Below are positions 2,495 through 34,078 of a stretch of 34,078 bases of DNA, one piece after another (positions within the stretch are counted from its first letter, which is position 1; every line of letters begins with the position of its first letter). Under the pieces are notes generated by a model. It was given only the letters and a program-made list of their open reading frames with translations, searched no databases and had not been told where the DNA came from. The translations under genes were made by a program, and so were the position numbers. Source of the stretch: a virus. The stretch is from positions 1 to 34,078 of IMG/VR virus record IMGVR_UViG_3300045107_000255; one strand, given 5' to 3'.

Positions 2495-2496
2495 TC

Positions 2497-2988: not shown

Positions 2989-3000
2989 CCATCGCCCCGG

Positions 3001-3064
3001 GGGGAGGGCGGGTCGAAAGTTCAGCCACCTGGTGGGAGACCCCACGCACCCCCTCCCTTTTTTT
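3001..3064 (+). terminator. Hairpin with T7 tract before the terminase genes
   Basis: GGGAGGG (3002-3008) pairs with CCCTCCC (3051-3057). Inside is a second stem GTGGG/CCCAC (3032-3036 / 3041-3045), and seven T residues follow directly (3058-3064). It looks like an intrinsic terminator but lies only 29 bases before the next gene, leaving little room for a fresh promoter. GTTCAG (3020-3025) and CTGAAC (3080-3085) form a wider inverted repeat around it. It may instead be part of a packaging (cos) site. Confidence 0.45.
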
Positions 3065-3093
3065 CTCCCCGGCAGCCCTCTGAACTGCGGAAA

Positions 3094-7776: not shown

Positions 7777-7851
7777 CACCACCACCTACTACGTACCCGC
7801 CGGCGTGCCGCCGGGCGGGCCGTCCGCATGCTCACGGAAGGGACCACGCGC

Positions 7852-9096
7852 ATGTCGAACACCCAGCAGCTCCGCGAGCAGCGGGCCAGCACCTGGGACA
7901 AGATGAAGGCGCTGATCGAGAAGACCGAGCGCACCGCTGAGGACAACCAGACGTACGACCGCCTGGAGGCGGAGTACGACCGGCTCGACGGGGAGATCGA
8001 GCGCCTGGAACGGTTCGCCAACCGGGCGGCCGACAACGACCGGGTCGACCGGACCGGTGTCGTACCGGCCACCGGTGCCGGCACCGCCGCCGGCCGGGAC
8101 GGAGACAAGGCGGCGTACGCCGCGGCGTTCCGGAACTTCCTGCGCCTGGGCGTCAACGAACTCGACGCCGACGAGCGGGCCCTGATGCGTGACCAGTTCC
8201 AGCAGTTCCAGAACGCCGCCGGGGTCGGCACCGGCGCCGCCGGCGGGTACCTGGTCCCGCCCGAGTTCCGCGACCGGGTCGTGGAGGCCATGAAGTGGTA
8301 CGGGCCGATGCTGCAGGTCGCCGAGACCATCACCACCGACAGCGGGGCGAACCTCCCCTGGCCCACCGCCGACGACACGGCCAACGTCGGTGCGATCCTG
8401 GCGGAGAACACGCAGGTCAGCGAGCAGGACGTCACCCTCGGCACCGCGTCGATCGACGCCTACATGTACACCAGCAAGCTGGTCAGGGTCAGCTACCAGT
8501 TGCTGCAGGACCGGCCCGACTTCGACACCTGGCTGGCCCGCAAGCTCGGTGAGCGCATCGGCCGGATCTGGAACGCCCACTTCACCAGCGGCACCGGCAG
8601 CAGCCAGCCCGACGGCATCGTCACCTCCGCCACCGTCGGCGTCACCGGCACCGGGTCCTTCGCCAGCACCGGCGGCGTCGCCTACAAGGACCTGATCAAC
8701 CTGATGGAGTCCCTGGACCCGGCCTACGGCGGCGGCCAGGGCCTGCGGTGGATGATGCACCAGAGCGTCCGCAAGGCCATCCGCCTGCTCACCGACACCC
8801 AGAACCGGCCGCTGTGGGAGCCGTCGCTGCAGACCGGTCAGCCGGACAACCTGCTCGGCTACCCGGTCAGCCTCAACAACGACATGGCCACCTTCGCCGC
8901 CTCCAGCAAGTCGCTGCTGTTCGGCAACATCGCCGAGGCCTACGTCATCCGCCGGGTCCGGGACATCAACACCCTGCGCCTGACCGAGCGGTACGCCGAC
9001 TACCTCCAGGTCGGCTTCCTCGGCTTCGCCCGCGCCGACGGCACCATGCAGAACGCCAACGCGGTCAGGGTCTTCCAGGCCACCGCCACCGCCTGA
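7852..9096 (+). CDS. Major capsid protein, HK97 fold
   Basis: 414 residues from ATG 7852, which has GGAAGGG 9 bases upstream; an in-frame ATG at 7828 would add eight residues but lacks a site. Residues 1-60 form a charged coiled coil (delta domain) that acts as internal scaffold and is normally removed by the prohead protease. The mature shell domain begins around residue 125 with GAAGGYLVPPEFRDRVVEAM. It includes LPWPTADDTANVGAILAEN, a long P-domain helix, and GFARADGTMQNANAVRVFQ at the end. This is the standard phage capsid family layout. Confidence 0.95.
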   Translation: MSNTQQLREQRASTWDKMKALIEKTERTAEDNQTYDRLEAEYDRLDGEIERLERFANRAADNDRVDRTGVVPATGAGTAAGRDGDKAAYAAAFRNFLRLGVNELDADERALMRDQFQQFQNAAGVGTGAAGGYLVPPEFRDRVVEAMKWYGPMLQVAETITTDSGANLPWPTADDTANVGAILAENTQVSEQDVTLGTASIDAYMYTSKLVRVSYQLLQDRPDFDTWLARKLGERIGRIWNAHFTSGTGSSQPDGIVTSATVGVTGTGSFASTGGVAYKDLINLMESLDPAYGGGQGLRWMMHQSVRKAIRLLTDTQNRPLWEPSLQTGQPDNLLGYPVSLNNDMATFAASSKSLLFGNIAEAYVIRRVRDINTLRLTERYADYLQVGFLGFARADGTMQNANAVRVFQATATA

Positions 9097-9985: not shown

Positions 9986-10294
9986 ATGCGCACGTTCTGG
10001 TACGCCGCCCTCGGCTACACCACCGCCGAGATCCGCGACCAGGTCCTGGCCGACTTCACCACCGCGGCCCAGCCGTACGTAGACGCCGGAACACTCGCCC
10101 CGGCCACCTGGGACGAAGCCCCGAACTTCCCCGCCGGCGTGCAGACGGTCGAGGCCGTCGACGGGCTGCCCGGGGTGGCCGGCGGGTACAACGTCCCCCA
10201 CGGGTGGGACTCCACCGAGGACTGGGCGATGCTGGCCTCGATCCTGCAGGACCCGGCCGAGTCCGGATCACAGGGCCTGGCCACGATCCTGTGA
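9986..10294 (+). CDS. Hypothetical protein in head region
   Basis: 102 residues, ATG 9986 preceded by TAGGAGG, a strong ribosome-binding site. The sequence is aromatic-rich (TFWYAALGYTTAEIR, GYNVPHGWDSTEDWAML) with no transmembrane or HTH signal. The stop overlaps the GTG of the next gene (GTGA). It is transcribed with the structural genes and is probably a minor virion or assembly protein. The family is not recognised. Confidence 0.55.
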   Translation: MRTFWYAALGYTTAEIRDQVLADFTTAAQPYVDAGTLAPATWDEAPNFPAGVQTVEAVDGLPGVAGGYNVPHGWDSTEDWAMLASILQDPAESGSQGLATIL

Positions 10295-11454
10295 CCGTCG
10301 GGTACGGCACGGTCGGGACCGTCGTCGCCGCCGCGGCGCAGACCCTGGCCGTGCCGTACCCGACCGGGATCACCGCCGGCGACGCCCTGGTCCTCACCCG
10401 CGCGGCCAAGTCCGAGACGACCGCCTTCATCACCCCGTTCGGGTGGACGCCGCTAGACGACCGCACCGGTGGCACCGGCGTGCTCGGCAACGACACCGGC
10501 CAGCTCAGGTTGGCCAGGTACTGGAAACAGGCCGACGGCACCGAGACCGGCAACCTGACCGTCGACACCACCCCGGCCACCGTGGACGTCCAGATGGGCG
10601 TCATCTGCCGCTACACCAAGGCCGCCGGTGCCACCTGGTCCCTGGCCGCCTCCGGCGGGTCGGACTCCACGACCGGCACCGACTGGTCCGTGACCGCCGC
10701 GACCAACCCGGGCATCACCGCCGGGGACCTGCTGGAGGTGGTCCTGGCCTGGCCCACCGACGCCACCCGCACCTGGACCGCCGAGGTCCTGGCCGCGACC
10801 GGGGCCACGATCAGCGGGCTGATGGTCCCGTTGACGTCCGGGCTGACCGCCCTGGGCGCCGACATGGCCGTCCGGGCGCACCTGTACCAGTGCACCGCCG
10901 GCCCGGCTACCGCCGCTCCGGTGTACACCGCGACGGTCAACTCTGCGACCAACATCGCCGGCCCCACGTCGGTGGTCAGGTTGCGGGAGGTGTTCACCTC
11001 CAGCAGCGGCCCGGTCGCGGCCACCTTGCCTCCGGTGAGCACCGCGGCGGCCGGGACGGCCCGCACCACCGCCACGGTGCCCAACACCCTGCCCCGGCTG
11101 ACCGCCACCGCCGCTGGGACCGCCCGCACCGGTGGGCCCGCGGCCGCCACTCTGCCCCGGCTGACCACCGCGGCGGCCGGGGCCGTCCGCACCGCCGGTC
11201 CAGTGGCCGCCGGGCTGCCGGCGGTGGCCGTGGCGGCCGCCGGCACCGCCCGCACCACCGGCACCGGCGCCGGCGGGCTGCCGCCGGTCGACGTCGATCT
11301 GGCCGGGCAGGTCAGCACCCCGGGCGCGGACACCTACACCCCCGGGGTCCTCACCCCCGGCGGTGCCACCGCGGCCCTGGCCGCCGCCGGCACGGCGGCT
11401 CAGCTGGCCGCGTCCACCACCACACCCGCCCGGCTGACCGCCGGCGGCACCTGA
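10291..11454 (+). CDS. Virion protein with C-terminal tandem repeats
   Basis: 387 residues from GTG 10291 in the GTGA overlap. Residues 1-235 are a beta-rich domain (GITAGDALVLTR, FGWTPLDD, ADGTETGNLTVDTTP, GITAGDLLEVVLAWP) that repeats the 'GITAGD.L' turn and looks like a jelly-roll or Ig-type structural domain. From residue 246, five imperfect 21-residue units follow, each starting LP and usually containing AAGTART. The repeats are Ala/Thr/Pro-rich and probably form an extended stalk or spacer. A surface fibre or decoration role is likely but not proven. Confidence 0.65.
   Translation: MTVGYGTVGTVVAAAAQTLAVPYPTGITAGDALVLTRAAKSETTAFITPFGWTPLDDRTGGTGVLGNDTGQLRLARYWKQADGTETGNLTVDTTPATVDVQMGVICRYTKAAGATWSLAASGGSDSTTGTDWSVTAATNPGITAGDLLEVVLAWPTDATRTWTAEVLAATGATISGLMVPLTSGLTALGADMAVRAHLYQCTAGPATAAPVYTATVNSATNIAGPTSVVRLREVFTSSSGPVAATLPPVSTAAAGTARTTATVPNTLPRLTATAAGTARTGGPAAATLPRLTTAAAGAVRTAGPVAAGLPAVAVAAAGTARTTGTGAGGLPPVDVDLAGQVSTPGADTYTPGVLTPGGATAALAAAGTAAQLAASTTTPARLTAGGT
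11026..11340 (+). repeat. Five 63-nt in-frame tandem repeats
   Basis: Units begin at 11026, 11089, 11152, 11215 and 11278, each exactly 63 bases. Each encodes 21 residues starting with LP; the last copy has diverged (no AAGTART). The array sits within the 3' third of the virion protein gene. Copy number could change by slippage or recombination without breaking the frame. Confidence 0.8.
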
Positions 11455-15652: not shown

Positions 15653-18328
15653 GTGGCCGACACGTCCCTGGTGTTCAACGCTGTCGGCCGCGACCGCGGG
15701 GTCAACAGCCTGCTGGCCCGCACCGCCGCCGGCGTGAAGTCGTCGAACGCGGCGGCCGCGGCGTCGACGGTGGCGTACGGGGCGGCGATGGCCTCCGCCG
15801 CGGCGCACGCGATGGCCCTGGCGGTGTCCGCCCGGGCGGCGGCCGGGGCGGCCGCCCTGGTGCCGGCGGCGGTGGCCGGCACGGTGGCCCTGGTCGGCGC
15901 GGCTCGGACGGTGACGTTCGGGCTGGCGGATGCGTGGACGGCCACCGGGCAGGCTGCTACCGCTGGCGGCGGGTCGTCGGTCAACACCGCCCGCCGGGTG
16001 GCCACCGCGCAGCGGCAGGTCGAGCAGGCCACCCGGGGGCTGGTCGACGCCCAGCGGGCGGCCCTGGCCGCGCAGGCGGCCGTCACCGCCGCCCGGGCGG
16101 CGGAGACCGAGCGGCTGCAGGACCTGACCCGCTCCCTGGCCGGGGCTCGTTTGGATGAGGAAGCCGCGGTCGACGCCGTCACCGCCGCTCAAGAGCGGCT
16201 GGCCGAGGTGCAGCGCGCCGGTGGTGACCCGACAGAGATCCACGCGGCTGACCTGGCCTACCGGCAGTCCATGCAGACCCTGGACGAGGTCCGGGACCGG
16301 GTCGGCGACCTGGGCGCCGAGCAGACCGACTCCCAACGCAAGGGGGTCGAGGGGTCCGACCAGGTGCAGGAGGCACTGCGCCGGCAGGCCGAGGCGCAGC
16401 AGGCCGTCACCGACGCCGCCCAGCGGCTGGCTGATGCGCAGGACGCCGTCCGGGACGCCTCCGCCCAGGCCGCTGCCGCCGGCATCGACCCGGCCGCGGA
16501 GGCCCTGGCCCGGCTGTCCCCGGCCGGGCGGGCTGTGATCCTGACCCTGCGGGCCCTGGTGCCGGCGTGGCAGGCCGCTGGCCGGGCCGGGCAGCAGGCC
16601 ACCCTCGCCGGGGTGGCCGGGGACCTGCGGGACCTGTCCGCCCTCTACCTGCCCCGCACCACCGGCTGGCTGACCCGGATGGGCACCGCGTTCAACTTCG
16701 TCCTGCGGGACCTCGCCTCGTGGGGGCAGTCGGCCAACGGGTCCCGCACCGTGGACGCAATCCTCGGCTCGACGGCGGCCACGACCGAACGGCTCGCCCG
16801 CGCCGTACGGCCGGTGGTCAACGGGGTGGCCCAGTTCGTCCAGGTGGGTGCCAGCTTCCTACCCGGGCTGGCCGGGAATGTGGGCGACATCGCGACCAGG
16901 TTCGAGCGGTGGGCGGTGGCCGCCCGGCAGTCCGGGCAGATGCAGCAGTGGATCAGCACCGGCGTGACCACCCTGCGGCAGTTCGGGCAGATCGCCGGCA
17001 ACGTCGTCGGCATCGTCATGGCCATCTTCCGGGCCGGCGGGGACGGCGGGGCGACCGTGGCCAACCTCGTCCGCATGACGACCGCAGCCAGGGCGTGGGT
17101 GGATTCCGCCGAGGGCCAGCAGCGCATCACCCAGATCTTCGCCACCCTGCGGGAGATCCTCGGCGGCCTGGCCGACGGGTTCGCCAACACCGACGCCCCG
17201 GCCGGGACGCTGCTGGACACCCTGTCCGTCGGCGGCACGGTCGTGTCCTTCCTGGCCGACCACACCGACACCCTGGCCACCGCCCTGCCGTACCTGGCTA
17301 CGGGGTTCCTGCTGGTCAAAGCGGCGCAGGTGGCGTCCAACGCTGCCGCGGTGGTCGCGGTCCCGATCCGGATCGCGGAGATCTTCGCCAACCGGCGCCT
17401 GGCCGCCAGCATCACCGCGCAGACCGCCGCGCTGACGGTCAACAAAGGCGCCCAGGCCACCAGTGCGGCCGCCACCGGGGTGGCCACCGCGGCGACCGTC
17501 ACCGGTGACGTCGCCACCAAACGGTCGGTGATCAGCATGGTCGCGCAGCGGACGGCGATGATCGCGTCGTCGGCGGCCGCCCGGGTCGCCGCCGCCGGCC
17601 AGTGGATCCTCAACGCCGCTCTGTCCGCCAACCCGATCGGGCTGATCGTCCTGGCGGTGATCGCCCTGATCGCCGGCATCGTCCTGCTGTGGCGCAACTC
17701 GGAGACGTTCCGCACGATCGTGACCGGGGCGTTCAACGCCGTCTGGGGCGCGATCAAGGCGGTGTGGGACTGGGTGTCGACCAACTGGCGGCTGCTGCTG
17801 GCCATTCTGACCGGCCCGATCGGCCTGGCCGTCCTCTACATCACCCGCCACTGGGACTCGATCAAGGCCGGTGCGTCGTCGGTGTGGACCTGGATCACCA
17901 ACGGGTGGAACCGGATGGTCGGCTTCATCACCGGCCTGCCCGGCCGGGTCTCGAGAGCGGCGTCCGGGCTGTGGAACGGCATCTGGAACGGGTGGCGCAA
18001 CATCCTGAACCGGATCATCGCCGGGTGGAACAACCTCACCTTCACCATCGGCGGTGGGTCCATCGCCGGGATCAACATCCCGTCGCTGACGTTGTCCACA
18101 CCGGACCTGCCCTACCTGGCCACCGGCGGCACCGTCACCCGCGACGGCCTGGCCGTGGTCGGCGAGAACGGGCCCGAGGTGGTGTCGCTGGGCGCCGGGG
18201 CGTCCGTGGTGCCCCTGCCCTCCGGCGGGGGCGGCGGCCCGGCCGGGACGGTGAAGGTGATCGTCGTCGGCGGGGACCGGGACGCGATCGCCTACCTGCG
18301 CCGGCTGAACCAGCAATACGGGATCTAA
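15653..18328 (+). CDS. Tape measure protein
   Basis: 891 residues from GTG 15653. It sets tail length inside the tube and may help DNA cross the envelope. The N-terminal 350 residues are Ala/Gln/Arg-rich coiled coil (QRQVEQATRGLVDAQRAAL, RQAEAQQAVTDAAQRLADAQDAV). Hydrophobic segments occur near residues 55-85 and 655-680 (PIGLIVLAVIALIAGIVLLW). The C-terminus has Trp-rich repeats (NAVWGAIKAVWDWV, NGIWNGWRNI) and ends in the usual GLAVVGENGPEVVSLGAGASVVPL. At roughly 1.5 angstrom per residue, the tail would be around 130 nm (estimate). Confidence 0.93.
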   Translation: MADTSLVFNAVGRDRGVNSLLARTAAGVKSSNAAAAASTVAYGAAMASAAAHAMALAVSARAAAGAAALVPAAVAGTVALVGAARTVTFGLADAWTATGQAATAGGGSSVNTARRVATAQRQVEQATRGLVDAQRAALAAQAAVTAARAAETERLQDLTRSLAGARLDEEAAVDAVTAAQERLAEVQRAGGDPTEIHAADLAYRQSMQTLDEVRDRVGDLGAEQTDSQRKGVEGSDQVQEALRRQAEAQQAVTDAAQRLADAQDAVRDASAQAAAAGIDPAAEALARLSPAGRAVILTLRALVPAWQAAGRAGQQATLAGVAGDLRDLSALYLPRTTGWLTRMGTAFNFVLRDLASWGQSANGSRTVDAILGSTAATTERLARAVRPVVNGVAQFVQVGASFLPGLAGNVGDIATRFERWAVAARQSGQMQQWISTGVTTLRQFGQIAGNVVGIVMAIFRAGGDGGATVANLVRMTTAARAWVDSAEGQQRITQIFATLREILGGLADGFANTDAPAGTLLDTLSVGGTVVSFLADHTDTLATALPYLATGFLLVKAAQVASNAAAVVAVPIRIAEIFANRRLAASITAQTAALTVNKGAQATSAAATGVATAATVTGDVATKRSVISMVAQRTAMIASSAAARVAAAGQWILNAALSANPIGLIVLAVIALIAGIVLLWRNSETFRTIVTGAFNAVWGAIKAVWDWVSTNWRLLLAILTGPIGLAVLYITRHWDSIKAGASSVWTWITNGWNRMVGFITGLPGRVSRAASGLWNGIWNGWRNILNRIIAGWNNLTFTIGGGSIAGINIPSLTLSTPDLPYLATGGTVTRDGLAVVGENGPEVVSLGAGASVVPLPSGGGGGPAGTVKVIVVGGDRDAIAYLRRLNQQYGI

Positions 18329-18357
18329 CTCCGCTACCACGTTGGAGGTGTGTCGTC

Positions 18358-21141
18358 GTGGTGTTCCCTACCAGTGGTGGCCTGCCGGTCGTCGTGGAGA
18401 TCGCCCCCGGGGCGGCGGCCGCGGCTGACCCGGGGACCTGGACGTGGACGGACGTGTCCACCCGGTGGCTGCTGAACGAGAAGATCACGATCACCGAGGG
18501 CCGGGGGGACTGGGGCACCCGGGTCGACACCGGCACCTGCCGGATCACCTTCCGCAACAACGGCGACTTCTCGCAGTTCAACCCGGCCGGGCAGTGGTAC
18601 GGGCTGCTCGGCCGGGACACCCCGCTGCGCGTGCGGCTGCGGCGCGGTGTGGACGCGTTCGCCCGCACCGTGTCCGCCGGGTGGGGCACCGCGGACTCCG
18701 GTCAGGCGTGGTCGATCGGCACCGGCTCCGCCGCCGACATCAGCGTGTCCGGTGGTGTCGCCCGGCACGCCCACACGGCGGTCGGGCAGCTGCGTCGCAC
18801 GAAACTGGCCGCGACCCTGACCGACTGCGAACAGCTGTTCGACGTGTCGACCAGTGCCCTGCTGACCGGGGCGGCGCTGGTCAGCGGGGGCACGTTCCGG
18901 GAGACCGCCGGCGGGGACTACTACTGGCTGCGGGTGGAGTTCAACGCCGGCGGCACCACCATGATGCTCAAGATCACCAAGGTCGTCGGGGGGGTGTACA
19001 CCGACCTGGGCGTGCTCAACCCCCTGCCGGGCATGGTGTACGCGGCGAACACCCCGGTGCGGGTCCGCGCGTCGGTGGCCGGGGAGAAGCTCGCCATCAA
19101 GGCCTGGGCCGCGTCGGGTACGGAGCCCTCCGGATGGCAGCTGACCGTCTCCGACGAGTCCCTCACCGCCCCCGGCGCGCCAGGGGTGCAGAGCTGGCTC
19201 GTGTCCGGCAACACCAACACCCTGCCGGTGGTCGCCAGCTTTGACACCTACTACCTGCACGTGGACCTGTGGGGCGGGTACGTGCCGGCGTGGGTGCCCT
19301 CCTGGGACCAGTCGGGGAAGTACCGGACGGTGCAGGTCACCGCCCGGGGCACCCTGTACCGCCTCCAACCCGCCGGGTCGGGCAAGCCCCCGAAGCGGTC
19401 ACCGTTGCGACGCACGATCACCGCGGCCAAGCCGGCCGCGTACTGGCCGGTCGAGGACGGGGCCGCGTCCGGGCAGGCCGCATCGGCCATCGCCGGGCAT
19501 CCGAGCATGGCCGTCACCGGCACCGTGGGGTTCGCCCCGGTGTCGGACTACGTGTTCGCGCTGACCAGCACGACCACCAAGTTCGGGACCAGCGCTCTGG
19601 CGTCGCTGGCCGCCGGCGGCCAGCTCGCCGCCCGGGTGCCCACGTCCGTCACCACCGCCACCGCCACCGGGTGGCGGGTCCACGTCACCGCCAAGAGCAA
19701 CATCACCGAGATCAGCGGTAATGTGACCCTGCTGGAGTGGGACACCCCCGGCGGCACCTACGTCAAGTGGCGGCTCGTCCAGGAGAAGGTCTCGTCGTAC
19801 ACGACGGTGTACGGGATCGACGCGGCCGGCACCGGGTGGATCCTCGCCCAGTGGACCCAGTCGGTGCCCTCGTTCAGCACCTACGAGGTGACCGGGTCGC
19901 AATCCGGGGGGACCATGTCCGTGGCCCTGTACGTCGACGGTGGGTCCGCGGTCGCCTCCGCCAACTACACGGCCGCCCTCGCCGGGATCACCCAGGTCGC
20001 GGTCAACACCACCTCCGCCACCAGCTCGGGCGAGCTGGTGGCCGGCCACATCGCGGTGTGGGCCGGCACCACCGCCCCCTACCCGACCGGGCTGATCATC
20101 GACTCCTACAACGGCCTGGTCCAGGCCGCGATCCAGTCCTACAACAACGAAGCCGCCGTCGACCGAATTGGCCGCCTCGTCAGCGAGGACGGCATCACCT
20201 TCACCGCCCCGACCGTGTCCTCGGCAGGCGTGTCCCGCATGGGCTGGCAGACCACCGAAGCCCCCCTGCCCCTGTACCAGCAGTGCGAGGACACCGACGG
20301 TGGTGTGCTGTACGAACGGCCTTTCGCCCTGGCCTACCAACCGCGGGAGGCCCGGTACAACCAGGCCCCGGCGCTGACCCTGAACGCCCAGTCCGACCTG
20401 GCCGACCCGCCGGCCCCGGACGCCACCGGGCAGGGCTACCGCAACCGGTGGACCGCCGAGCGGGTCGACGGGTCCACGGCGGTGGCGCAGACCGACCAGG
20501 TCACCGCCGGCACCGCGGTGGTCTACGACGACTCCGTGACCCTGTCGGTGTCCTCCGACGCGGTCCTGGCCGACCAGGCCGGGTGGCGGGTCCACCTCAC
20601 CGCCGACGAGCGGCTCCGCTGGCCACAGCTGTCCCTCGACCTGGCCGCCCGGCCCGCGCTCATCGACACCTGGCTCAACTGCAGGGTCGGGTCGCGTATC
20701 CAGGCGACCAACCCGCCCGCCGACGTCGCCGGCCAGGACATCGACGTCATCCTGGAGGGCCACACCACCACCCTGGGATACAACGACTGGGACGTGCAGA
20801 TGAACTGCTCACCAGCCGCCGGGTGGGACATCGCCCTGCTGGACGGCGAGCAGCGGGTCGCCTCCGACGGCTCCACCCTCGCCGCGGGCATCACCGCCGC
20901 CGCCACCACGTTCCAGCTCGCGTCAACGGCCACCAACGGCACCTGGACCACCGACCCGGCCGATTTCCCGTTGGACGTGGCCGTCGGGGGGGAACGGGTC
21001 CGCCTGTCCGCCATCACCGGCACCACCTCACCGCAGACCGCCACCGTCGCCACCGGCGGCCGGGCCATCAACGGGGTGTCCCGCGCCTGGCCGGCCGGGA
21101 CCGCGGTGGACGTCTGGGCGCCCGCGATCACCCCCCTGTGA
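18358..21141 (+). CDS. Large minor tail protein with LamG-like domain
   Basis: 927 residues, GTG 18358 with GGAGG 9 bases upstream. The first 100 residues (WTDVSTRWLLNEKITITEGRGDWGTRVDTGTCRITFRNNGDFSQFN) are a baseplate-hub type start. A middle section (about 345-590: PAAYWPVEDGAASG, GFAPVSDYVFAL, SVALYVDGGSAVAS, LVAGHIAVWAG) follows the ConA/LamG sandwich pattern for sugar binding. The C-terminal part (YERPFALAYQPREARYN, VILEGHTTTLGYNDWDVQMNCSPA) is typical of actinophage tail-tip proteins. It probably forms the tip and contacts the host. No separate Dit gene is seen. Confidence 0.75.
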   Translation: MVFPTSGGLPVVVEIAPGAAAAADPGTWTWTDVSTRWLLNEKITITEGRGDWGTRVDTGTCRITFRNNGDFSQFNPAGQWYGLLGRDTPLRVRLRRGVDAFARTVSAGWGTADSGQAWSIGTGSAADISVSGGVARHAHTAVGQLRRTKLAATLTDCEQLFDVSTSALLTGAALVSGGTFRETAGGDYYWLRVEFNAGGTTMMLKITKVVGGVYTDLGVLNPLPGMVYAANTPVRVRASVAGEKLAIKAWAASGTEPSGWQLTVSDESLTAPGAPGVQSWLVSGNTNTLPVVASFDTYYLHVDLWGGYVPAWVPSWDQSGKYRTVQVTARGTLYRLQPAGSGKPPKRSPLRRTITAAKPAAYWPVEDGAASGQAASAIAGHPSMAVTGTVGFAPVSDYVFALTSTTTKFGTSALASLAAGGQLAARVPTSVTTATATGWRVHVTAKSNITEISGNVTLLEWDTPGGTYVKWRLVQEKVSSYTTVYGIDAAGTGWILAQWTQSVPSFSTYEVTGSQSGGTMSVALYVDGGSAVASANYTAALAGITQVAVNTTSATSSGELVAGHIAVWAGTTAPYPTGLIIDSYNGLVQAAIQSYNNEAAVDRIGRLVSEDGITFTAPTVSSAGVSRMGWQTTEAPLPLYQQCEDTDGGVLYERPFALAYQPREARYNQAPALTLNAQSDLADPPAPDATGQGYRNRWTAERVDGSTAVAQTDQVTAGTAVVYDDSVTLSVSSDAVLADQAGWRVHLTADERLRWPQLSLDLAARPALIDTWLNCRVGSRIQATNPPADVAGQDIDVILEGHTTTLGYNDWDVQMNCSPAAGWDIALLDGEQRVASDGSTLAAGITAAATTFQLASTATNGTWTTDPADFPLDVAVGGERVRLSAITGTTSPQTATVATGGRAINGVSRAWPAGTAVDVWAPAITPL

Positions 21142-21678: not shown

Positions 21679-22461
21679 ATGACCAGCGCACCCCTGACCC
21701 TGGTCGCCTCTCGGCGGCTGCTGTTGGACCACCTGGACATGCACCCGGGGGTGACGGTGGACCCGGACCTGGACCCCGCCGAGGTCGGCATCGTCGGCGA
21801 CGTGAACCACCGGGGCGGCTACCACTGCGGATCGGACCGGGTCGTCGTCGACGACTACTCGGTGGTCGAGTCGTCCCGGGACCGCACCGGCCTGGCCGAC
21901 TGGGCGTGCGCTCTGGACCTGGGCAAGTGGTCGGCGACCGTGGCCGGCAAGCGGCACGACCTGCGCAGCATGTCGGTCTGGATCGTCGCCCAGTGCAAGG
22001 CCGGCGCCCCGGACGCCCGGGACATCCGGGAGGTCATCTACTCGCCGGACGGCCAGGTGGTGCGCCGGTACGACCGGCTCGGCATCCGATCCTCCGGGGA
22101 CGACAGCCACCTGGAGCACACGCACCTGAGCTACTTCCGGGACGCGATCAAGGCCGGCCGCGACCAGACCGCCCTGTTCCGCCGCTACCTGACCAGCATC
22201 GGCCTGCTGGCCGCACCCGCTCCGGCCGCCACTCCGGCACCGGCACCGATCACGAAGAAGGGCTCCGACATGATCCTGATCAAGAAGAAGGACAACGACC
22301 GGGTCTACATCTCCTGGGGCGCCGGCCGGGCCCACCTCACGGCCCCCACCCAGCTGGCACCGTTGCAGCAGGCCGGCATGCCGCTGATCACCGTGGCGTC
22401 GGACGCCGAGCTGGATGCGATCGGCGGCCCGCTGCGCGACATCGCCAGCACCCCGGCCTGA
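21679..22461 (+). CDS. Endolysin candidate, M15-like peptidase
   Basis: 260 residues, ATG 21679 preceded by GGAAGGAG. The N-terminal 180 residues have a candidate zinc-ligand series: H49 in GGYHCG, acidic residues in DDYSVVE and RDRTGL, D80 in CALDLG, and a later HLEHTHLSYF. This looks like a D-Ala-D-Ala carboxypeptidase/VanY-type fold with longer spacing than usual. A Pro/Ala linker follows, then a 60-residue C-terminal segment (MILIKKKDNDRVYISWGAGRAHL) that may bind the cell wall. Position before holin-like genes supports lysis. Catalytic class is inferred, not certain. Confidence 0.65.
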   Translation: MTSAPLTLVASRRLLLDHLDMHPGVTVDPDLDPAEVGIVGDVNHRGGYHCGSDRVVVDDYSVVESSRDRTGLADWACALDLGKWSATVAGKRHDLRSMSVWIVAQCKAGAPDARDIREVIYSPDGQVVRRYDRLGIRSSGDDSHLEHTHLSYFRDAIKAGRDQTALFRRYLTSIGLLAAPAPAATPAPAPITKKGSDMILIKKKDNDRVYISWGAGRAHLTAPTQLAPLQQAGMPLITVASDAELDAIGGPLRDIASTPA

Positions 22462-23577: not shown

Positions 23578-23606
23578 ATCTGTCACTCTCCGTTGATCGG
23601 GGTGGC

Positions 23607-23685
23607 GTCCGGACGGTCCGGACGAATCTGTCCGGATGGCCGTCCGGATGGTGGTCTACATGGACTGGGCCCCGCCCGTCCGGAC
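23607..23685. repeat. Cluster of 8-bp GTCCGGA(C/T) repeats, clt-like
   Basis: Copies start at 23607, 23616, 23630, 23642 and 23678 (GTCCGGAC, GTCCGGAC, GTCCGGAT, GTCCGGAT, GTCCGGAC); a sixth near-copy begins at 23687. They lie in the 140-base gap directly 3' of the TraB-like gene. In Streptomyces conjugative plasmids, TraB binds short repeated 8-bp sites in the clt transfer locus, which is often found at this position. Binding here is inferred. Confidence 0.6.
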
Positions 23686-23704
23686 GCTCCGGACGGGCGG
23701 GGCC
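23668..23704. terminator. 16-bp perfect hairpin 3' of translocase gene
   Basis: GGCCCCGCCCGTCCGG (23668-23683) pairs perfectly with 23689-23704 over an ACGCT loop. It lies 21 bases past the stop of the minus-strand translocase gene and contains one of the 8-bp repeats. It can act as a terminator of that gene or as part of a transfer locus. No T tract follows. Confidence 0.6.
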
Positions 23705-23725
23705 TGTGTGACTGTGCGTGCAGGG

Positions 23726-25645
23726 TCAGACGGGTTCGGGGATGCGGATGCGGTACACGCCGCGGCTGGTGTGCCGCAGGATCGCGTCGTCGCCGGTGCA
23801 CAGGCGGCCCATCTCTTTGCGGACCCAGTCGGCGCCCTTGCCGGTGGCTTCCATGACGTCGCTCAGCTCGCTGGGCTTGATCGCCTCGGCCCCGGCGTCG
23901 TGCAGGTCGTGGACGTACTGCCGCAGCCACTCCCGGGCCTCCTCCGCGCCCATCGGCGGCTTGCGCAGCTCACCGAAGGCGATGCGGCGGATGCCGGGCG
24001 GCACGGCGATGGGCTGCGCCGGGTCAACGTCGTCCGGCGGCTCGTCCGGGTTGACCCCGGGCCTCGGCGCGGTGGTGGTCGTGGTGTCCTCCTCGGTGTC
24101 GCCGTCCGGCGCCGGGCCGGCCGGGGCGGTGGGCTGCTGGGTAGTGGGCTGCTGGCCGGTGAACGGTGCGACGGCGGCGGCGCGGTCCTTCTCGTCGGCG
24201 ACGAAGGACCGGCACGGCATGATCCACCGCTCCGGGTCGGTGCCGGGCACCTCGGCGTACAGGTAGCCGGGCTTGGTGTTCTTCCACTCCCACGGCGCGG
24301 CCCCAGCGTCGAGGGTGGCGTCGGTCAGGGCCATCTCCGCGTCGGTGGCGCTGTCCACCCCGAGGCAGATCGACCCACTGATGTTGGACCGGGCACTGGT
24401 GGGGAACCGGTCGTGCGAGGCGCGCTGCAGGCCGAAGACCAGGCTGATGCCGGCGGACCGGGCCGCCTCGGTCAGCTCGGTGACGAGCGGGTTCCCGGCG
24501 GCCACCTGGGCGGCCTCGTCGATGATGGCGACCCGGTACGTGGGGCACCGGTCGCACCCGGCGGTCCACTGCTTGTGCTGGTGAGCGCCGATCTGCCGGG
24601 CCCGGGTAGCGATGTCGGCGTACAGGTCTTCCAGCAGCGCGTTGGTGGCCTCTTCGGTGCTGGCGGTGCGGGCGGCACCGTCGACAGCCCACCGGGGCAA
24701 CTGGTCGAACTTGCGGGGGTCGGCCAGCCACAGCTCCGCGTCGGGCCGGGACAGAACCTCGGCACAGATGTTGAGGATGACCTCGGTCTTCCCCGCTCCG
24801 GACATCCCGACGACCAGGTAGTGGTTGGCGTTGCGGCCGGCGGAGTGGTCGCCGGGGAACCAGATCAGCAGCGGCTCCCCGTCCTCCATGATCCCGAGGG
24901 CGATGGCTTCGGCGATGGACCGGCCCGGAGCGGACAGGCCCGGCCAGGGGATCATCTGGCGGAGCTGGTCGACGGGGACGACGTCGATGCGGCCCCGTCG
25001 TGCCGAGTCGGGGTTGGGGACGACCCGCACGGCCGTGGTGGGCACGTCCAGGGCGGAGGCCAGGGCCGCCCGGTCCCCGGCGAGTTCCGACACGGCGGTG
25101 CCGGGTTCGAGGCTGACCTGGGCGACCGCCCGGGCCCCGTCGATGGTGGCCCGGCCGATCCGGGCGCCCTTGAGGGACTTGACCGCCTCGCCCAGGCCGC
25201 CGTCCGCCGTACCGTCGTGCTCGCCGGTGGGCCGGCCGTCGCGGAGGACCCGGATCGTGGACATGGCCACCGACGCGGTGACCGTGCCGAGCACCCAGGC
25301 GTCCAGCCACGGCCGGGACCACGGGGCGGCCAGCGTGGCACCGATGGTCCAGACCGACCCGGCGCCGGTGGCGAGGGTGGCGACGTACCGGCGCACGACG
25401 CCGCGGGCGGCGGCGGCCCGCCAGGTCAGCCCGGTCAGCGCCCCACCGGCGAGGGTGAGCCCGGCGGCGGCGAATCCGGCTGTGACCGGGGTGTCCCACC
25501 ACAGGTGCCCGCCGGCGGTGGCGACCCACAGGCCGGCTCCGGCGGTGGGGGTGATCAGATGCGGCCACAGCGGCACCTTGACCTGCCACGACGACGGTTC
25601 GCTGTGGTCGATGTTCTTCGGCATCCTCGTCTTCACGCTGCTCAC
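23726..25645 (-). CDS. TraB/FtsK-like DNA translocase (conjugal transfer)
   Basis: 639 residues on the minus strand, GTG start overlapping the previous stop (GTGA). About four hydrophobic segments lie in residues 25-135. A FtsK/SpoIIIE motor follows, with Walker A GMSGAGKT (280-287, K286) and Walker B VAIIDEA (D376/E377), and sensor-like LVFGLQRAS. An acidic Thr/Pro linker (about 500-560) leads to a C-terminal winged-helix-like domain (IKPSELSDVMEATGKGADWVRKEMGRL...SRGVYRI). This is the architecture of Streptomyces TraB proteins, which move double-stranded DNA between mycelial cells. A phage-specific FtsK-like translocase is the alternative. Confidence 0.85.
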   Translation of the reverse strand: MSSVKTRMPKNIDHSEPSSWQVKVPLWPHLITPTAGAGLWVATAGGHLWWDTPVTAGFAAAGLTLAGGALTGLTWRAAAARGVVRRYVATLATGAGSVWTIGATLAAPWSRPWLDAWVLGTVTASVAMSTIRVLRDGRPTGEHDGTADGGLGEAVKSLKGARIGRATIDGARAVAQVSLEPGTAVSELAGDRAALASALDVPTTAVRVVPNPDSARRGRIDVVPVDQLRQMIPWPGLSAPGRSIAEAIALGIMEDGEPLLIWFPGDHSAGRNANHYLVVGMSGAGKTEVILNICAEVLSRPDAELWLADPRKFDQLPRWAVDGAARTASTEEATNALLEDLYADIATRARQIGAHQHKQWTAGCDRCPTYRVAIIDEAAQVAAGNPLVTELTEAARSAGISLVFGLQRASHDRFPTSARSNISGSICLGVDSATDAEMALTDATLDAGAAPWEWKNTKPGYLYAEVPGTDPERWIMPCRSFVADEKDRAAAVAPFTGQQPTTQQPTAPAGPAPDGDTEEDTTTTTAPRPGVNPDEPPDDVDPAQPIAVPPGIRRIAFGELRKPPMGAEEAREWLRQYVHDLHDAGAEAIKPSELSDVMEATGKGADWVRKEMGRLCTGDDAILRHTSRGVYRIRIPEPV

Positions 25646-26270: not shown

Positions 26271-27686
26271 TCAGACCGCGTCGCGGTCGGTGGTCTGGTC
26301 GGTAGTGGTGGTCTTCGTGGCCCGCTTGGCGCGCTCGGTGCGGACCAGGTTGATGGCGGCGCTGGTGTCCCCGGCGCTGGTCCAACCGAGGTCTTCCATC
26401 ACGGTCTTGCGCGCCGGGATCTCACCCCGGTAGCGGCGCCGGAGCACCTTGGCCATCTCCACTACGCGGGGCGGAACCTGGTCCGCGTCCTGGTCCACCC
26501 GGACGGTCGTCCGGGGCGCACTGGCGGTCCGGGTGGCCGGGATGGACCGGCTGGTCAGCGGCTGGACCACCGCCGCCGGGTTGGACCGGGCCTGGTCCAC
26601 CGGCTGGTCCAGGATCTGGTCCAACCACGACGTGTCGGCCTGGACCGAGGTGCGGACCGCCGGACGGGCCTGGACCGGTCCGACCGGCGCCGGCGGCGTG
26701 GTCTGGATCCGGGCCGCGATCCGGGCCGGCATCCGGACCAACTCGTTGGCCCACATCTGGTCTGCCGTGGCCCGCCGGGGCTGGTCCGGGCGGAACGCGT
26801 GGACGTGCTCGGCGCGCACCCGGTCGGCGGCCTGCCGGGTGATGAGCCGGACGCCGTCGAGCACGTCCCGGGTCGCGTCGTCGACCGGCTGCGCCTGCGG
26901 TGCGGTCGGATCGGTCAGCCGCTCGATCTGGTGCACCCGGGCCACCTGCCGCTGCGCCGTGGCGATCATGTCCGGGTCGGCAGCCAGGGCAAGGCGGCGC
27001 AGCTTCGCCGCGCGCAATGGCCGCAGCCGGCGGGATCCGTGGTGCAACCGGTGCGCGGTCACGGTGAGCTGGGTGATCCGCCGCTCCCGGTCGACCGTCT
27101 TCAGGTCCTTCTTCCCCGGCCGGATCAGGCCGAAGTGGATGCCGATGTGCCGGGGCGTCCAGATCCAGGACGACTGCTCCTGGACGTCTCCGCGCTTCTC
27201 CCGGAGTACCTCGACGAGGTCTGCCCACCACTGGGCGGCGACCAGGGCCGGGGCCATGAAGCGGACGAGCAGCTCGGCGACGTTCGGTGCGTTGGTGGCG
27301 GCGGTGAGGCCGGCGCCGAGGGCGATGGTCCACACCATCACCCCGTAGATGCCGGGCGTCTTGCCCTTCTCGACCTTGGCCCGGGCCCGGCGTGCGCTGC
27401 GGGCCATGGCCAGCTCGGCGAACGCAAACAGCAGGATCGCCTTGGCCGGGTCGAAGCCCATCTTCTCGGTGGCGACTTCCCACATGCCCTCGGCGGACAG
27501 CGCGACCGCGATCAGGACGGCGGCGCCGTCGCAGATCCGACCGAACAGGTCCACCCGGCCGCGTAGCTGCCGGCGCACCCAGTACCCGGCACCGGACAGG
27601 CCGACCATGAGGACACCGGCGGTGACGAGGACGGCTGTGTGGTGCTCGTCGACGACCGCCAGGGCCCGCTCGAACTCAGGAGGCAT
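26271..27686 (-). CDS. Multi-pass membrane protein, spread (Spd)-like
   Basis: 471 residues on the minus strand, ATG 27686, first gene of the transfer operon. About five hydrophobic segments lie within residues 15-155 (HTAVLVTAGVLMVGLSGAGYWV, GAAVLIAVALSAEGMWEVA, AILLFAFAELAMARS, GVMVWTIALGAGLTAATNA, FMAPALVAAQWWADLVEVL). A long basic, then Pro/Gln-rich cytoplasmic part follows, ending in a helical module (VVEMAKVLRRRYRGEIPARKTVMEDLGW). Membrane proteins with this plan accompany TraB in plasmid spreading. Family membership is uncertain. Its transcript is probably leaderless, since the predicted start lies at the ATG. Confidence 0.65.
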   Translation of the reverse strand: MPPEFERALAVVDEHHTAVLVTAGVLMVGLSGAGYWVRRQLRGRVDLFGRICDGAAVLIAVALSAEGMWEVATEKMGFDPAKAILLFAFAELAMARSARRARAKVEKGKTPGIYGVMVWTIALGAGLTAATNAPNVAELLVRFMAPALVAAQWWADLVEVLREKRGDVQEQSSWIWTPRHIGIHFGLIRPGKKDLKTVDRERRITQLTVTAHRLHHGSRRLRPLRAAKLRRLALAADPDMIATAQRQVARVHQIERLTDPTAPQAQPVDDATRDVLDGVRLITRQAADRVRAEHVHAFRPDQPRRATADQMWANELVRMPARIAARIQTTPPAPVGPVQARPAVRTSVQADTSWLDQILDQPVDQARSNPAAVVQPLTSRSIPATRTASAPRTTVRVDQDADQVPPRVVEMAKVLRRRYRGEIPARKTVMEDLGWTSAGDTSAAINLVRTERAKRATKTTTTDQTTDRDAV

Positions 27687-27821: not shown

Positions 27822-28586
27822 GTGAGCGAGCACGTTCCGGCGTACCTGCGCATCGTCGCGGAGCTGCGCGCGCGCATCATCTCCGGCGACCTCCAAGCGG
27901 GCGACCGGGTGCCGAGCGAGAACGACATCCGCCAGGCCTACGGCGTGTCCAACACCGTGTCCCGCGCCGCGTTGGCGATGCTCCGCGCCGAAGGGCTCGT
28001 CGAGCAGCGCCGCGGCTCCGGCACGTACGTACGCGACGCGGCCCGGCTGGTGCGCCGCGCCCACGCCCGGAACATGCGGCAACAGACCGGCAGCACGTCG
28101 CCGTTCGCCCGAGACGCGACGGCGGCCGGCCGGGCCAGCACCTGGGACCACCGCAGCGAGCACGCCACCGCCGACGCCCGGATCGCCGGCCGCCTCGGTA
28201 TCGCCGTCGGCGACCCGGTCATGGTCACCCGGTATAAGTTCCTCGCCGACGGTGACCCGATCCAGCTGTCGGAGTCCCACGAGCCCCTGGCGGTCACCGG
28301 CGGCACCCAGGTGGAGTGGCCGGAGGACGGGCCGACGGTCGGCGTGGTGGCCCGGATGGACTTGATCGGGGTGCACGTCGACCGGTGCCGTGAGGAGATC
28401 TACGACCGGTCCGCGACACCGGACGAGGTCGAGGCGCTGCGCTTGGATCCGCGTGGACCGTTGCGGGTGCTCGCGGTGGAGCGCACCTACTACGCCGGTA
28501 ACACCGCCGTGGAGACGGCGGACATCGCGTTCCCGGCGGATCGGTACCGGTTGGTGTACGACATGCCGATCGATCTGCCGACATGA
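27822..28586 (+). CDS. GntR-family regulator (HutC/UTRA), KorSA-like
   Basis: 254 residues, GTG 27822 with GAGAGGA about 6 bases upstream. The N-terminal winged HTH (AYLRIVAELRARIISGDLQAGDRVPSENDIRQAYGVSNTVSRAALAMLRAEGLVEQRRGSGTYV, residues 6-70) is followed by a UTRA effector-binding domain (about 95-250: PVMVTRYKFLADGDPIQLSESHEP, CREEIYDRSATPDEVEALRL, LAVERTYYAGNTAVETADIAFPADRYRLVYDMPI). It is divergent from the transfer operon, with two palindromic operators between. In pSAM2-like elements such regulators keep tra genes silent. The effector is unknown. Confidence 0.88.
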   Translation: MSEHVPAYLRIVAELRARIISGDLQAGDRVPSENDIRQAYGVSNTVSRAALAMLRAEGLVEQRRGSGTYVRDAARLVRRAHARNMRQQTGSTSPFARDATAAGRASTWDHRSEHATADARIAGRLGIAVGDPVMVTRYKFLADGDPIQLSESHEPLAVTGGTQVEWPEDGPTVGVVARMDLIGVHVDRCREEIYDRSATPDEVEALRLDPRGPLRVLAVERTYYAGNTAVETADIAFPADRYRLVYDMPIDLPT

Positions 28587-29058: not shown

Positions 29059-29115
29059 TAGCAGTTTCTAATCTTTCACGATCGTGAAAGATCACAAAGA
29101 TAGAAAACTGCTACC
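29057..29115. other. AT-rich compound palindrome (terminator or attP candidate)
   Basis: TAGCAGTTT (29059-29067) is mirrored by AAACTGCTA (29105-29113). Inside lies a perfect palindrome with 11-bp arms ATCTTTCACGA (29071-29092), centred at 29081.5, while the outer arms centre at 29086. It fills the gap between two convergent genes and overlaps the recombinase stop codon. It is strikingly AT-rich for this element. It may be a bidirectional terminator or the recombinase attachment site. Confidence 0.6.
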
Positions 29116-30532
29116 AGCGGAAATGCACGGTAACCCGCGCTGATTCGGGCTCCCGCCAGTGCTCAGCCCGGCGCACGACGACTCGGTCCACGACCGCACG
29201 TAGCGCCCGGTTTCGCTCCTGGTTGGTCATCTCCGGCCACAGACGCAGCAGGGTATCCACCGCCGCCGCCTCGGCCTCCGGCGGCGGTGCCGACTCCACC
29301 GGGCCGAGGCGCGCCAGCTCGGCCACCGCCGCCTGCTCCCTGCGGCGCAGCTCGGCCATCGACTCCTGGTACACCTCGTCGGGCAGCTCGCCGAGGGCGT
29401 CGCGGGTCGCCAGCTTCGTCATGCCGGCCCGCACGACCCGCAGCTGCTGCTCCATCCGGTCCCGGTCGGCGCGGGCGTCGGCGATGCGAGCCAGCCGGGC
29501 GGCGCGAGCCCCGGCGTCGGTACGCAGCCGGGCCGCGTACACCCGCACCTGGGCAAGCACCTCCTCCTCCACCCGGTCGACGAGAGGCCGGCCCACACCG
29601 GGGCAGTCGCCTCCCTTGGTGTCGGTGCGGGTCTGGCCGCACACAAGCCGGCCAGCCTGCCGCTGGAGCTTGTGGCCCTGCGGGCACTCCACCAAGCCCA
29701 CGAGCGGCCACCCGTAGGCCAGCGCCCGCGGCGGGGTGCCGGCTTCGACCGCCAGGCGCTCCTGGACGCGCTTCCACGTATCGGCGTCGGTCAGGGCTTC
29801 ATGCTGGCCGGGCAGGATCTCGCCGCCGGCCACCACCTGGCCGAGGTACACCGGGTTCCGGAGCAACTTCTTGACGTTCGCCGTGGTCATCGGCACGCCA
29901 CGCACCCCGGCCAGGTAGGCGGTCACCTCGCCGATCGGCTCACCGGCCGCGTACCGGCGGAAGGTCTCGGTGATCGCCGGACCGATCCGGCCCGGTGTGA
30001 GCCCCTTGTCGGCTCTGGCGTAGCCGAGAGGCCGGCCGTGGTGCTGCCCACGTTCGGCGCGGCGGCGGATCGTCCCGGCCCAGCCTGCTCCGATCTCGTC
30101 GGACCGGTACTCGGCGATCGCGAGCATGTTGGTGAGCATCAGCCGGCCGGCCGGGGTGGACGTGTCGACCTGCTCGGAGGCGGACAGGATCGTGACGCCC
30201 TGGTCGGCCAGCTCGGCGAGGAACGTCAGGGACTCCTTGACGTTGCGGCCGAGCCGGGACACGTCGTAGACGGCCAGGGCGTCGATCTCCCGGGCCTCGG
30301 CCATGCGGCGGATCCGGTCGATGCCCTCGCGGGAGAAGTGACGGCCGGTGCGGTCGATGTCCTCGACGACCGCCACCTCCCGCAGGCCGGCGAGGGTGCG
30401 GCGGATCGCGCCGAGCTGCACGTCCGGGCTGTGGAAATCATCGCCGCCCCGGCCGGCAAGGGCCGATACCCTGACGTAGGCCACAACCCGCTGAGGACGA
30501 CGGTCAGGGGCGGCCTTGAGGCGGCGCGGCAT
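29111..30532 (-). CDS. Large serine recombinase (integrase)
   Basis: 473 residues on the minus strand, ATG 30532 overlapping the previous stop (ATGA). It would catalyse attP x attB integration through a Ser-DNA link. The catalytic domain has YVRVS (S23), the VYDVSRLGRN segment near 90-98, and RLMLTNMLAIAEYRSDEIG. A recombinase domain follows (HGRPLGYARADKG...TAYLAGVRGVPMTTANVKKLLRNPVYLG), then a zinc ribbon with CPQGHKLQ, LVCGQ and CPGVG cysteines and a coiled-coil (ARADRDRMEQQLRVVRAGM). The length is normal for the family. No partner directionality factor is certain. Confidence 0.93.
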   Translation of the reverse strand: MPRRLKAAPDRRPQRVVAYVRVSALAGRGGDDFHSPDVQLGAIRRTLAGLREVAVVEDIDRTGRHFSREGIDRIRRMAEAREIDALAVYDVSRLGRNVKESLTFLAELADQGVTILSASEQVDTSTPAGRLMLTNMLAIAEYRSDEIGAGWAGTIRRRAERGQHHGRPLGYARADKGLTPGRIGPAITETFRRYAAGEPIGEVTAYLAGVRGVPMTTANVKKLLRNPVYLGQVVAGGEILPGQHEALTDADTWKRVQERLAVEAGTPPRALAYGWPLVGLVECPQGHKLQRQAGRLVCGQTRTDTKGGDCPGVGRPLVDRVEEEVLAQVRVYAARLRTDAGARAARLARIADARADRDRMEQQLRVVRAGMTKLATRDALGELPDEVYQESMAELRRREQAAVAELARLGPVESAPPPEAEAAAVDTLLRLWPEMTNQERNRALRAVVDRVVVRRAEHWREPESARVTVHFRW

Positions 30533-31455: not shown

Positions 31456-31613
31456 GTAGCCGCACTGGCCGCGAATCCCCGACCGCGAAGGTCGAGCCCC
31501 TGGACCCCGACAGCCCCGCCGGCCACGCCGCCGCCGAGGCGCTGTCCCAGGTCCTCGCCGAGATCCAGGTCGCCATCTGGCGGCGACGCGCCGCCGCCAA
31601 GCAGACGGCCTGA
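31452..31613 (+). CDS. Small hypothetical early protein
   Basis: 53 residues, ATG 31452 overlapping the Cro-like stop (ATGA). A polar N-terminus is followed by an amphipathic helix (AAAEALSQVLAEIQVAIWRRRAAAKQ) with a basic end. It is probably translated with the Cro-like protein. No family is recognised. Confidence 0.55.
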   Translation: MSSRTGRESPTAKVEPLDPDSPAGHAAAEALSQVLAEIQVAIWRRRAAAKQTA

Positions 31614-31620
31614 CAAGACG

Positions 31621-31650
31621 AGCCCCCTGCCGAGGCAACGGCAGAGGGCT
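31621..31650 (+). terminator. Hairpin in the early operon
   Basis: AGCCC-C-CTGCCG (31621-31632) pairs with CGGCAG-A-GGGCT (31639-31650), one mismatch, loop AGGCAA. It lies 7 bases after a stop and 39 bases before the next gene. There is no T tract. It could attenuate transcription or stabilise the upstream mRNA. Confidence 0.45.
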
Positions 31651-31689
31651 CAGCACCCGGACACACCCATCCATCAGCAAGGAGTCCAG

Positions 31690-32223
31690 ATGTCCCAGCA
31701 GCCTATCCGAACCCACACCACCGACCCGGCGGTGCTCGCCGCCGCTCTGCGAGAGATCGCCGACCTGATCCTCTCCGCCAAGGTCGACACCCTGACCGCG
31801 CCGGTCGACGTCCGCGTCAGCCTGTTCACCCACTACGACGCCACCGACGACCAGGCGCGGGAGGCTGTCGACCAGCTGGCGGCGGTCACCGGCAAGCCCG
31901 CGACCGACAGGGGCATCACCGACGCCAAGGTCTGGCACGAGACCGAGACCACCCAGGGCGTCTGGAGGCTGGCGGCCAAGGCGTTCCTCGACCGGCCGGT
32001 GACCCGGGTCGAGCAGCTCCAGGCGGAGGTCGACAAGCTCCGTGCCCAACTGGCCGAGCAGGCCGCTCAGACCGTGAGGGACGTCGTCGACCAGGGCGAC
32101 GAGGACGACGACTGCATCTGCCTGGAGGTCGACGGCTACCACACCTGCGGAACCACGATCAACGTGTTCTCCGACCCGGCAGTCCGGCGAGCCATCACCG
32201 ACACCACCGGTGGTGCCCAGTGA
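31690..32223 (+). CDS. Hypothetical early protein
   Basis: 177 residues, ATG 31690 with AAGGAG 6-7 bases upstream. The N-terminal part (AVLAAALREIADLILSAKVDTLTAPVDVRVSLFTHYDATDDQAREAVDQLAAVTG) resembles an alpha/beta domain seen in other actinobacterial phages and plasmids. A coiled coil follows (RVEQLQAEVDKLRAQLAEQAAQ), then an acidic stretch with CICLEVDGYHTCGTT. The function is unknown. It overlaps the next gene by four bases. Confidence 0.6.
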   Translation: MSQQPIRTHTTDPAVLAAALREIADLILSAKVDTLTAPVDVRVSLFTHYDATDDQAREAVDQLAAVTGKPATDRGITDAKVWHETETTQGVWRLAAKAFLDRPVTRVEQLQAEVDKLRAQLAEQAAQTVRDVVDQGDEDDDCICLEVDGYHTCGTTINVFSDPAVRRAITDTTGGAQ

Positions 32224-32593: not shown

Positions 32594-32874
32594 GCGCGTA
32601 TCAACGCGGCGACGAGCAGATCAGCCCGGTACCCGCCGTGCTGACCGACCCGTCCGTGGCCGCCGTGTGCCGAGACGCCCCACCAGAGCAGCAAGGGCTG
32701 TGGGTGTCCGGCGGAGCCAGAGACCAGCAGCAGGCAGCCCGGCTGTGCCTGGACTGCCCGCTGCTGGACCCCTGCCGGGCGTACGCGGTGGCCCAGCCGT
32801 GGCGGCAGCTGTTCGGGGTGTGGGGCGGCACTACCTACACGGACCGCCGCCGGATGGCGGGGGGCCGCCGGTGA
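32590..32874 (+). CDS. WhiB-like transcription factor
   Basis: 94 residues, GTG 32590. The four iron-sulfur ligands C27, C53, C56 and C62 fit the WhiB pattern (C, then CxxCxxxxxC), and GVWGG at 76-80 is the beta-turn motif, followed by the basic tail TDRRRMAGGRR. WhiB proteins carry a 4Fe-4S cluster and bind the primary sigma factor; they are specific to Actinobacteria and their phages. Phage copies can interfere with host WhiB function or control the phage switch. Location in the early operon suggests a regulatory role on takeover. Confidence 0.88.
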   Translation: MSAYQRGDEQISPVPAVLTDPSVAAVCRDAPPEQQGLWVSGGARDQQQAARLCLDCPLLDPCRAYAVAQPWRQLFGVWGGTTYTDRRRMAGGRR

Positions 32875-33245: not shown

Positions 33246-33736
33246 TGATCGACCTGGACGCGATCCGCGCCCGCAACTACTTCGCCGACGTCGACGAGCT
33301 CCGCCAGTTCGTCACCGACCTGCTCGACGCGTACGCCGACCTGGCTCTCGACCGGAACCACCTGGCCCAGCAGCACCGAGACCGGGCCGCCGCCGACAAG
33401 CGGTCGGCGCCGCTGCTCGAACTGGCCCGCGCCGAGGCCGACCGGGCGCACCGGCTGCACGACGAGACCGGCGAGGAGCTGGACCGGGTCACCGCCGACC
33501 GGCGGCAGTGGGTGCGCCTGGCCGGCCGGCTCGCCCGCGCCCTGGCCGAGGCGCACGCCGCCGGCCTGGCTGACCAGCGCACCCGGGACCGGTGGTCCGA
33601 CCTGCTCGGCCAGCACGTCGAGCGGGTGATGACCGCCGCCGGCCGGGAGCGCACCGACTGGCCGGAGTGGCACGCCCGGATGCTGGGTGACCGCGCCGAG
33701 CCGGCGGCCGAGGCGTCCCCGGTGGTGGCTCGGTGA
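33242..33736 (+). CDS. Hypothetical helical early protein
   Basis: 164 residues, GTG 33242 (ATG 33245 is also possible). It is acidic and helical (LDAIRARNYFADVDELRQFVTDLLDAYADLALDRNHLAQQHRDRAAADKR, then RAEADRAHRLHDETGEELDRVTADRRQWVRL). The coiled-coil pattern and length suggest a partner-binding protein. The family is not recognised. The stop overlaps the next GTG. Confidence 0.55.
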   Translation: MMIDLDAIRARNYFADVDELRQFVTDLLDAYADLALDRNHLAQQHRDRAAADKRSAPLLELARAEADRAHRLHDETGEELDRVTADRRQWVRLAGRLARALAEAHAAGLADQRTRDRWSDLLGQHVERVMTAAGRERTDWPEWHARMLGDRAEPAAEASPVVAR

Positions 33737-34078
33737 GCCGGGTGTACCGGGCCCGCCGCCGGCCGGGCACGCTGCGCCGCCTGGTCGACGCGCTCGCCGC
33801 CCGCCGACCGGCGGCACAGGAACCCGCCGCGCCGGAGCTAGTCGACGCCGACTACGAGTGGCTGCAGCAGGTCCGCGACGAGCCCACCAGCCTGCTGCAC
33901 ACTCCGCCCGCCCCCGGCCCGGTCCCGGCCGCCGCCCCTCCCGCCGGCCGGCACCACCCCGAGACGGTCAGCCGGGTCGACGCCACGTACAACCCCCTGC
34001 CCCCCGCGGTCCGAGCCGAGATCGCCCCGTCCGCGTGGATCCGCGCCGGGGTCGACGACCACACCGGACGCCTGGACG
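33733..34078 (+). CDS. 5' part of edge-split hypothetical protein
   Basis: 115 codons from GTG 33733 (GTGA overlap) run open to the last base of the window, leaving one base. With base 1 appended, the frame continues without a stop to 416. The visible part is basic at the start (RRRPGTLRRLVDALAARR), then Pro-rich (TPPAPGPVPAAAPPAGRHHPE), and ends AVRAEIAPSAWIRAGVDDHTGRLD. No domain is recognised. Together with the fragment at 1-416 it would be 253 residues. Confidence 0.65.
   Translation, partial: MSRVYRARRRPGTLRRLVDALAARRPAAQEPAAPELVDADYEWLQQVRDEPTSLLHTPPAPGPVPAAAPPAGRHHPETVSRVDATYNPLPPAVRAEIAPSAWIRAGVDDHTGRLD

Follow-up and report, generated by a model that had tools for sequence, protein, structure and literature searches.

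A 34,078-bp viral contig very probably forms, with a second contig, the genome of one temperate Micromonospora-type phage, and carries an AICE-type TraB gene

Introduction

The Micromonospora phage pMLP1 (CP058906.1) has been deposited as a circular record of 43,352 bp. A copy of its ATPase region is present in the chromosome of Micromonospora sp. ATCC 39149 (locus L010, NZ_GG657738.1), and pMLP1 therefore seems to occur in an integrated as well as a circular state. Micromonospora also carries AICEs, one of which (locus L177) encodes a prim-pol, a RepAM-like DUF3631 protein, an HTH_17 excisionase-like protein and a tyrosine integrase, and thus has the AICE layout as published (PMC3218068).

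The stretch of viral DNA analysed here (the window, 34,078 bp) covers the whole of its IMG/VR record, itself 34,078 bp long. It had been read in an initial annotation as a probably complete circle whose two ends join within one gene. Our analysis very strongly favours a different reading, in which the window and a second contig together make up the genome of one temperate Micromonospora-type phage, a closed molecule of 39,929 bp.

Results

The predicted gene content of the window is that of a temperate tailed phage (Caudoviricetes), since it includes a terminase, an HK97 portal, a ClpP-like protease, an HK97 capsid and a tape measure together with a large serine recombinase. The features of the phage region are as follows.

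416-3693, plus strand: small genes of the left arm, upstream of the terminase and up to an HTH protein (3094-3693)
3680-5248, plus strand: terminase large subunit
5504-6763, plus strand: HK97-type portal
6958-7776, plus strand: ClpP-like protease
7828-9096, plus strand: HK97-type major capsid
15653-18328, plus strand: tape measure
18358-21141, plus strand: tail protein, within a longer open frame (17602-21141)
21679-22461, plus strand: probable endolysin, with a homologue (L181:5951-6883) that has a PG_binding_1 domain
29111-30532, minus strand: large serine recombinase (integrase; Resolvase E=4e-25, Recombinase E=4e-9), with a 68% identical homologue in L132
31195-33736, plus strand: genes of the right arm including a WhiB-like protein (32638-32874), several with homologues upstream of an L005-type ATPase (see below) in relatives

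With a serine integrase present, integration of the element is possible. A 63-bp tandem repeat array of about four copies lies at 11007-11288, inside a gene (10291-11454) between the head and tail genes. Single-protein pattern searches of IMG/VR found no relatives of the terminase, and no near matches to window bases 1-25,000 were found among plasmids.

The observations at the window ends from which the circle had been proposed are themselves correct. An open reading frame with a GTG start at 33733 (33733-34077, plus strand) is open at its 3' end at the right edge, a plus-strand frame at 3-416 is open at its 5' end at the left edge, the two sum to 346 + 416 = 762 nt and would give a fused frame of 253 residues without a stop, and neither edge shows a host gene. 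However, because both edges sit in plus-strand genes, a random join would be in frame about one-third of the time, and the in-frame join probably reflects no more than chance. The window ends share no direct repeat, not even of a single base (the sequence opens with T and closes with G), so the hallmark normally expected of a circular contig from short reads is lacking. Exact inverted terminal repeats are also absent from the ends.

A search of IMG/VR with the fused 253-residue protein matched one contig, IMGVR_UViG_3300045107_000702 (L005, 6,105 bp). This match covers residues 74-115 of the fused protein at 100% identity, and stops at the last complete codon before the join. Comparison of the DNA revealed that both ends of the window are shared with L005, with 127 of 127 bases identical in each case, and that each end falls within a gene that continues in L005.

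33952-34078, no strand: right graph overlap, the 127-bp terminal stretch identical to L005:1-127
1-127, no strand: left graph overlap, the 127-bp initial stretch identical to L005:5979-6105
33733-34078, plus strand: 5' part of gene A (115 codons and one base), with the rest in L005:128-321
1-416, plus strand: 3' part of gene B, which starts at L005:5834 and has a homologue at L037:8723-9163
L005 318-1625, same direction as the arms: RecA-like/AAA_24 ATPase (phrog_1366 E=7e-57; PF13479)

Both overlaps have the length of the largest k in the canonical SPAdes k-mer set (21, 33, 55, 77, 99 and 127; PMC8172020), as would be expected if the window and L005 were neighbouring edges in a single de Bruijn assembly graph. 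The two 127-base overlaps also suggest that both contigs come from the same assembly. Together they close a cycle of 34,078 + 6,105 - 254 = 39,929 bp, in which 5,851 bp of L005 fall between the two ends of the window. Neither the first nor the last 30 bases of the window occur in any IMG/VR contig other than L005 and the window itself, and this search found no alternative branch in IMG/VR at either of the two cut nodes.

Read across the overlaps, gene A (window 33733-34078 and L005 128-321) comprises 540 nt, a multiple of three, and encodes 179 amino acids; its stop at L005:321 gives a 4-bp overlap with the ATPase gene. Gene B (L005 5834-6105 and window 128-416) comprises 561 nt, also a multiple of three, and encodes 186 amino acids. 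The joined gene of the initial annotation is a chimera of these two. In the IMG/VR locus L037, the gene A homologue (2064-2483) immediately precedes the ATPase (2501), and the homologue of gene B is a separate gene about 6.2 kb beyond it. Homologues match one half of the fused protein or the other, with none spanning both, an outcome that the initial annotation had named in advance as refuting the join; there are no homologues of the whole fused protein in phages, and gene A is fused to gene B in none of the loci found via the homologue of window gene 1465. Gene A homologues in seven loci end 24-68 residues past the join point, as compared with 64 residues for gene A and 138 for the fused protein. 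Alignment scores of these homologues with the gene A tail and with the fused tail did not discriminate between the two, as the tail is too weakly conserved, and it is protein length and gene context that decide. In phage records gene A had only weak minor-tail-like matches, and gene B had no match.

In addition to the ATPase, L005 encodes a UvrD-like helicase (phrog_1967 E=2e-84; PF00580), an initiator-like protein with a weak match to replication initiators (phrog_391 E=0.018; HTH_36) and small genes, all oriented like the right and left arms of the window. This piece is best read as a replication/recombination module with a possible replication initiator. Taking the window as complete would leave this module out of the phage and create a false gene.

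We compared gene order in loci retrieved by means of the L005 ATPase, and in others retrieved with a left-arm gene of the window from 160 genomes in the genus to which the strain carrying L010 belongs. The ATPase of pMLP1 is 85% identical to that of L005. Along its minus strand, pMLP1 has the homologue of the window gene at 31195 (41.3k), DNA matching window 31606-31743 (40.8k), WhiB (37.8k), the L005 ATPase (37.4k), L005 gene 3713 (35.4k), DNA matching window 663-774 (30.8k), the 1465 gene (30.6k), the tape measure (13.5k) and the endolysin (10.1k; 65% identical to that of the window). The succession, from the right arm through the ATPase module to the left arm and the tail/lysis genes, is fully collinear with the window and L005. 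The clearest case is L132, on a Micromonospora contig of 924 kb, where a single stretch holds the integrase (68% identical), the HTH gene, 31195, 31452 (80%), gene A, the ATPase (71%), the helicase, 3713, 4872 (64%), 1465 and 2202, again in the order of the window and L005. The same holds more widely, as many Micromonospora prophages have L005 genes between right-arm and left-arm window genes, and homologues of the left-arm genes 1465-2205 and 2202-2462 follow the L005 module in relatives. From the start of the ATPase to the 1465 homologue, relatives span 5.6-9.3 kb and the composite of window and L005 spans 7.1 kb. Some loci with a 1465 homologue (e.g. L131, L135 and L138-L141) had no L005-type gene by tblastn, which implies that the module itself varies among these prophages.

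The similarity to pMLP1 is modular. As pMLP1 has no tblastn match for the terminase, portal, capsid or serine integrase of the window, nor for its TraB, the window phage is, on these comparisons, a relative of pMLP1 by modules and not the same species. A prophage of Micromonospora endolithica (L149) has a portal, protease and capsid 72%, 65% and 71% identical to those of the window, and L132, L149 and L037 are mosaic, each with only some of the window modules.

Discussion

These data are best explained if a de Bruijn assembler working at k=127 broke a circular or circularly permuted molecule at two nodes of 127 bases, located within gene A and gene B respectively, and so produced the window (34,078 bp) and L005 (6,105 bp). 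Graph forks, probably reflecting strain variation, would lie behind the two cuts. The molecule is likely to be physically circular, as an excised or replicating circle, or else to be headful-permuted virion DNA; circularity is suggested by the closing of the cycle, the absence of host flanks and the circular pMLP1 record. The earlier proposal of a circular element thus probably stands as to circularity, since the window and L005 close a cycle and pMLP1 was deposited as circular, while its completeness at 34,078 bp does not, as 5,851 bp are missing at the join and both ends continue into L005.

A fork is required for the contigs to break, and this could in principle be supplied by two coexisting forms, the 39.9-kb phage and a 34.1-kb deletion derivative lacking exactly the 5,851-bp module, represented as parallel edges of the graph. 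A deletion edge would give exactly these two nodes, and the bases flanking the join differ from those of L005, as a fork requires. However, a fork would arise just as readily from any strain variant of the module, chance alone would put a fusion in frame one-third of the time, and no IMG/VR contig with the direct join was found; we consider a deletion derivative very unlikely. It is more unlikely still that two different phages share both 127-base stretches, such that the window and L005 belong to separate molecules and the cycle is created by the graph alone. That the assembler left the contigs unmerged does suggest some ambiguity in the graph, but a single contig joins both window ends, in the order and with the spacing of pMLP1 and many prophages, and the frames of gene A and gene B both stay open. 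Least credible is a complete 34,078-bp circle with a real 253-residue gene, for although the join is in frame and open and host DNA is absent from the edges, one random join in about three would be in frame, terminal overlap is lacking, L005 continues both ends into other DNA, no IMG/VR contig contains the direct join, L005 being the only one apart from the window with the end 30-mers, relatives have the replication module at that place, and L037 carries the two halves as separate genes. As the principal form, this circle is already refuted by L005 together with the gene order.

A second feature of the window weighs more than the assembly cut itself. Between the probable endolysin gene and the integrase lie a gene for a conjugative translocase and a cluster of repeats.

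23726-25624, minus strand: TraB-type double-stranded DNA conjugative translocase
23590-23710, minus strand: GTCCGGAC repeats in a clt-like cluster, immediately 3' of traB

The TraB protein matches the TraB plasmid-transfer family NF041214 along its full length (positions 8-635 of 639; E=9e-137), with a score of 457 bits that is under the model's strict cut-off of 800. It is 70% identical over 1-631 to an AICE TraB. All three GTCCGGAC sites of the window, and six of its 20 TCCGGA sites, fall in the 148-bp gap that follows the traB stop. The chromosomal Micromonospora AICEs L177, L178 and L180 encode TraB proteins 66-70% identical to that of the window, with a neighbouring homologue of the 25642 gene at 77% identity, and in each a clt-like cluster of GTCCGGAC repeats occupies the corresponding position 3' of traB. 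In other elements other types of repeat follow traB, as expected for a clt site, and the GTCCGGAC cluster is probably such a site. A GntR/UTRA regulator (27822-28586, plus strand) is located near the traB cassette, and GntR regulators are similarly placed in L177 and L178. A 471-residue protein (26271-27686, minus strand) had no match in Pfam, PHROGs or NCBIfam; a homologue of its residues 15-219 (31% identity) adjoins traB in prophage L182.

This cassette is not confined to one phage genome. It is present beside tail or lysis genes in at least two other Micromonospora prophages, namely L181, with tape measure, tail and lysin genes, and L182, with a lysin and with a portal and terminase in the adjoining L186. 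No phage record searched matched TraB over 80% of the protein, and the 24 phage records that did match are FtsK-like translocases of mycobacteriophages, with 26% identity over 41%. Pattern searches of IMG/VR found no TraB relatives.

With respect to the AICE criteria of integrase, Tra and Rep, the window has a serine integrase and TraB, and no AICE-type Rep (RepSA, RepAM or Prim-pol) was found among the part of the proteins scanned. We tentatively raise the possibility, which we regard as rather doubtful, that the 39.9-kb element is a functional phage-AICE hybrid, a temperate tailed phage that could also move as double-stranded DNA by TraB/clt conjugation. A phage with an AICE-type TraB gene and a clt-like site would link phage transmission with actinobacterial double-stranded DNA conjugation. 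The AICEs L177, L178 and L180 yielded no homologues of the phage genes of the window, which, unlike them, combines its TraB cassette with a serine integrase and an entire phage structural region.
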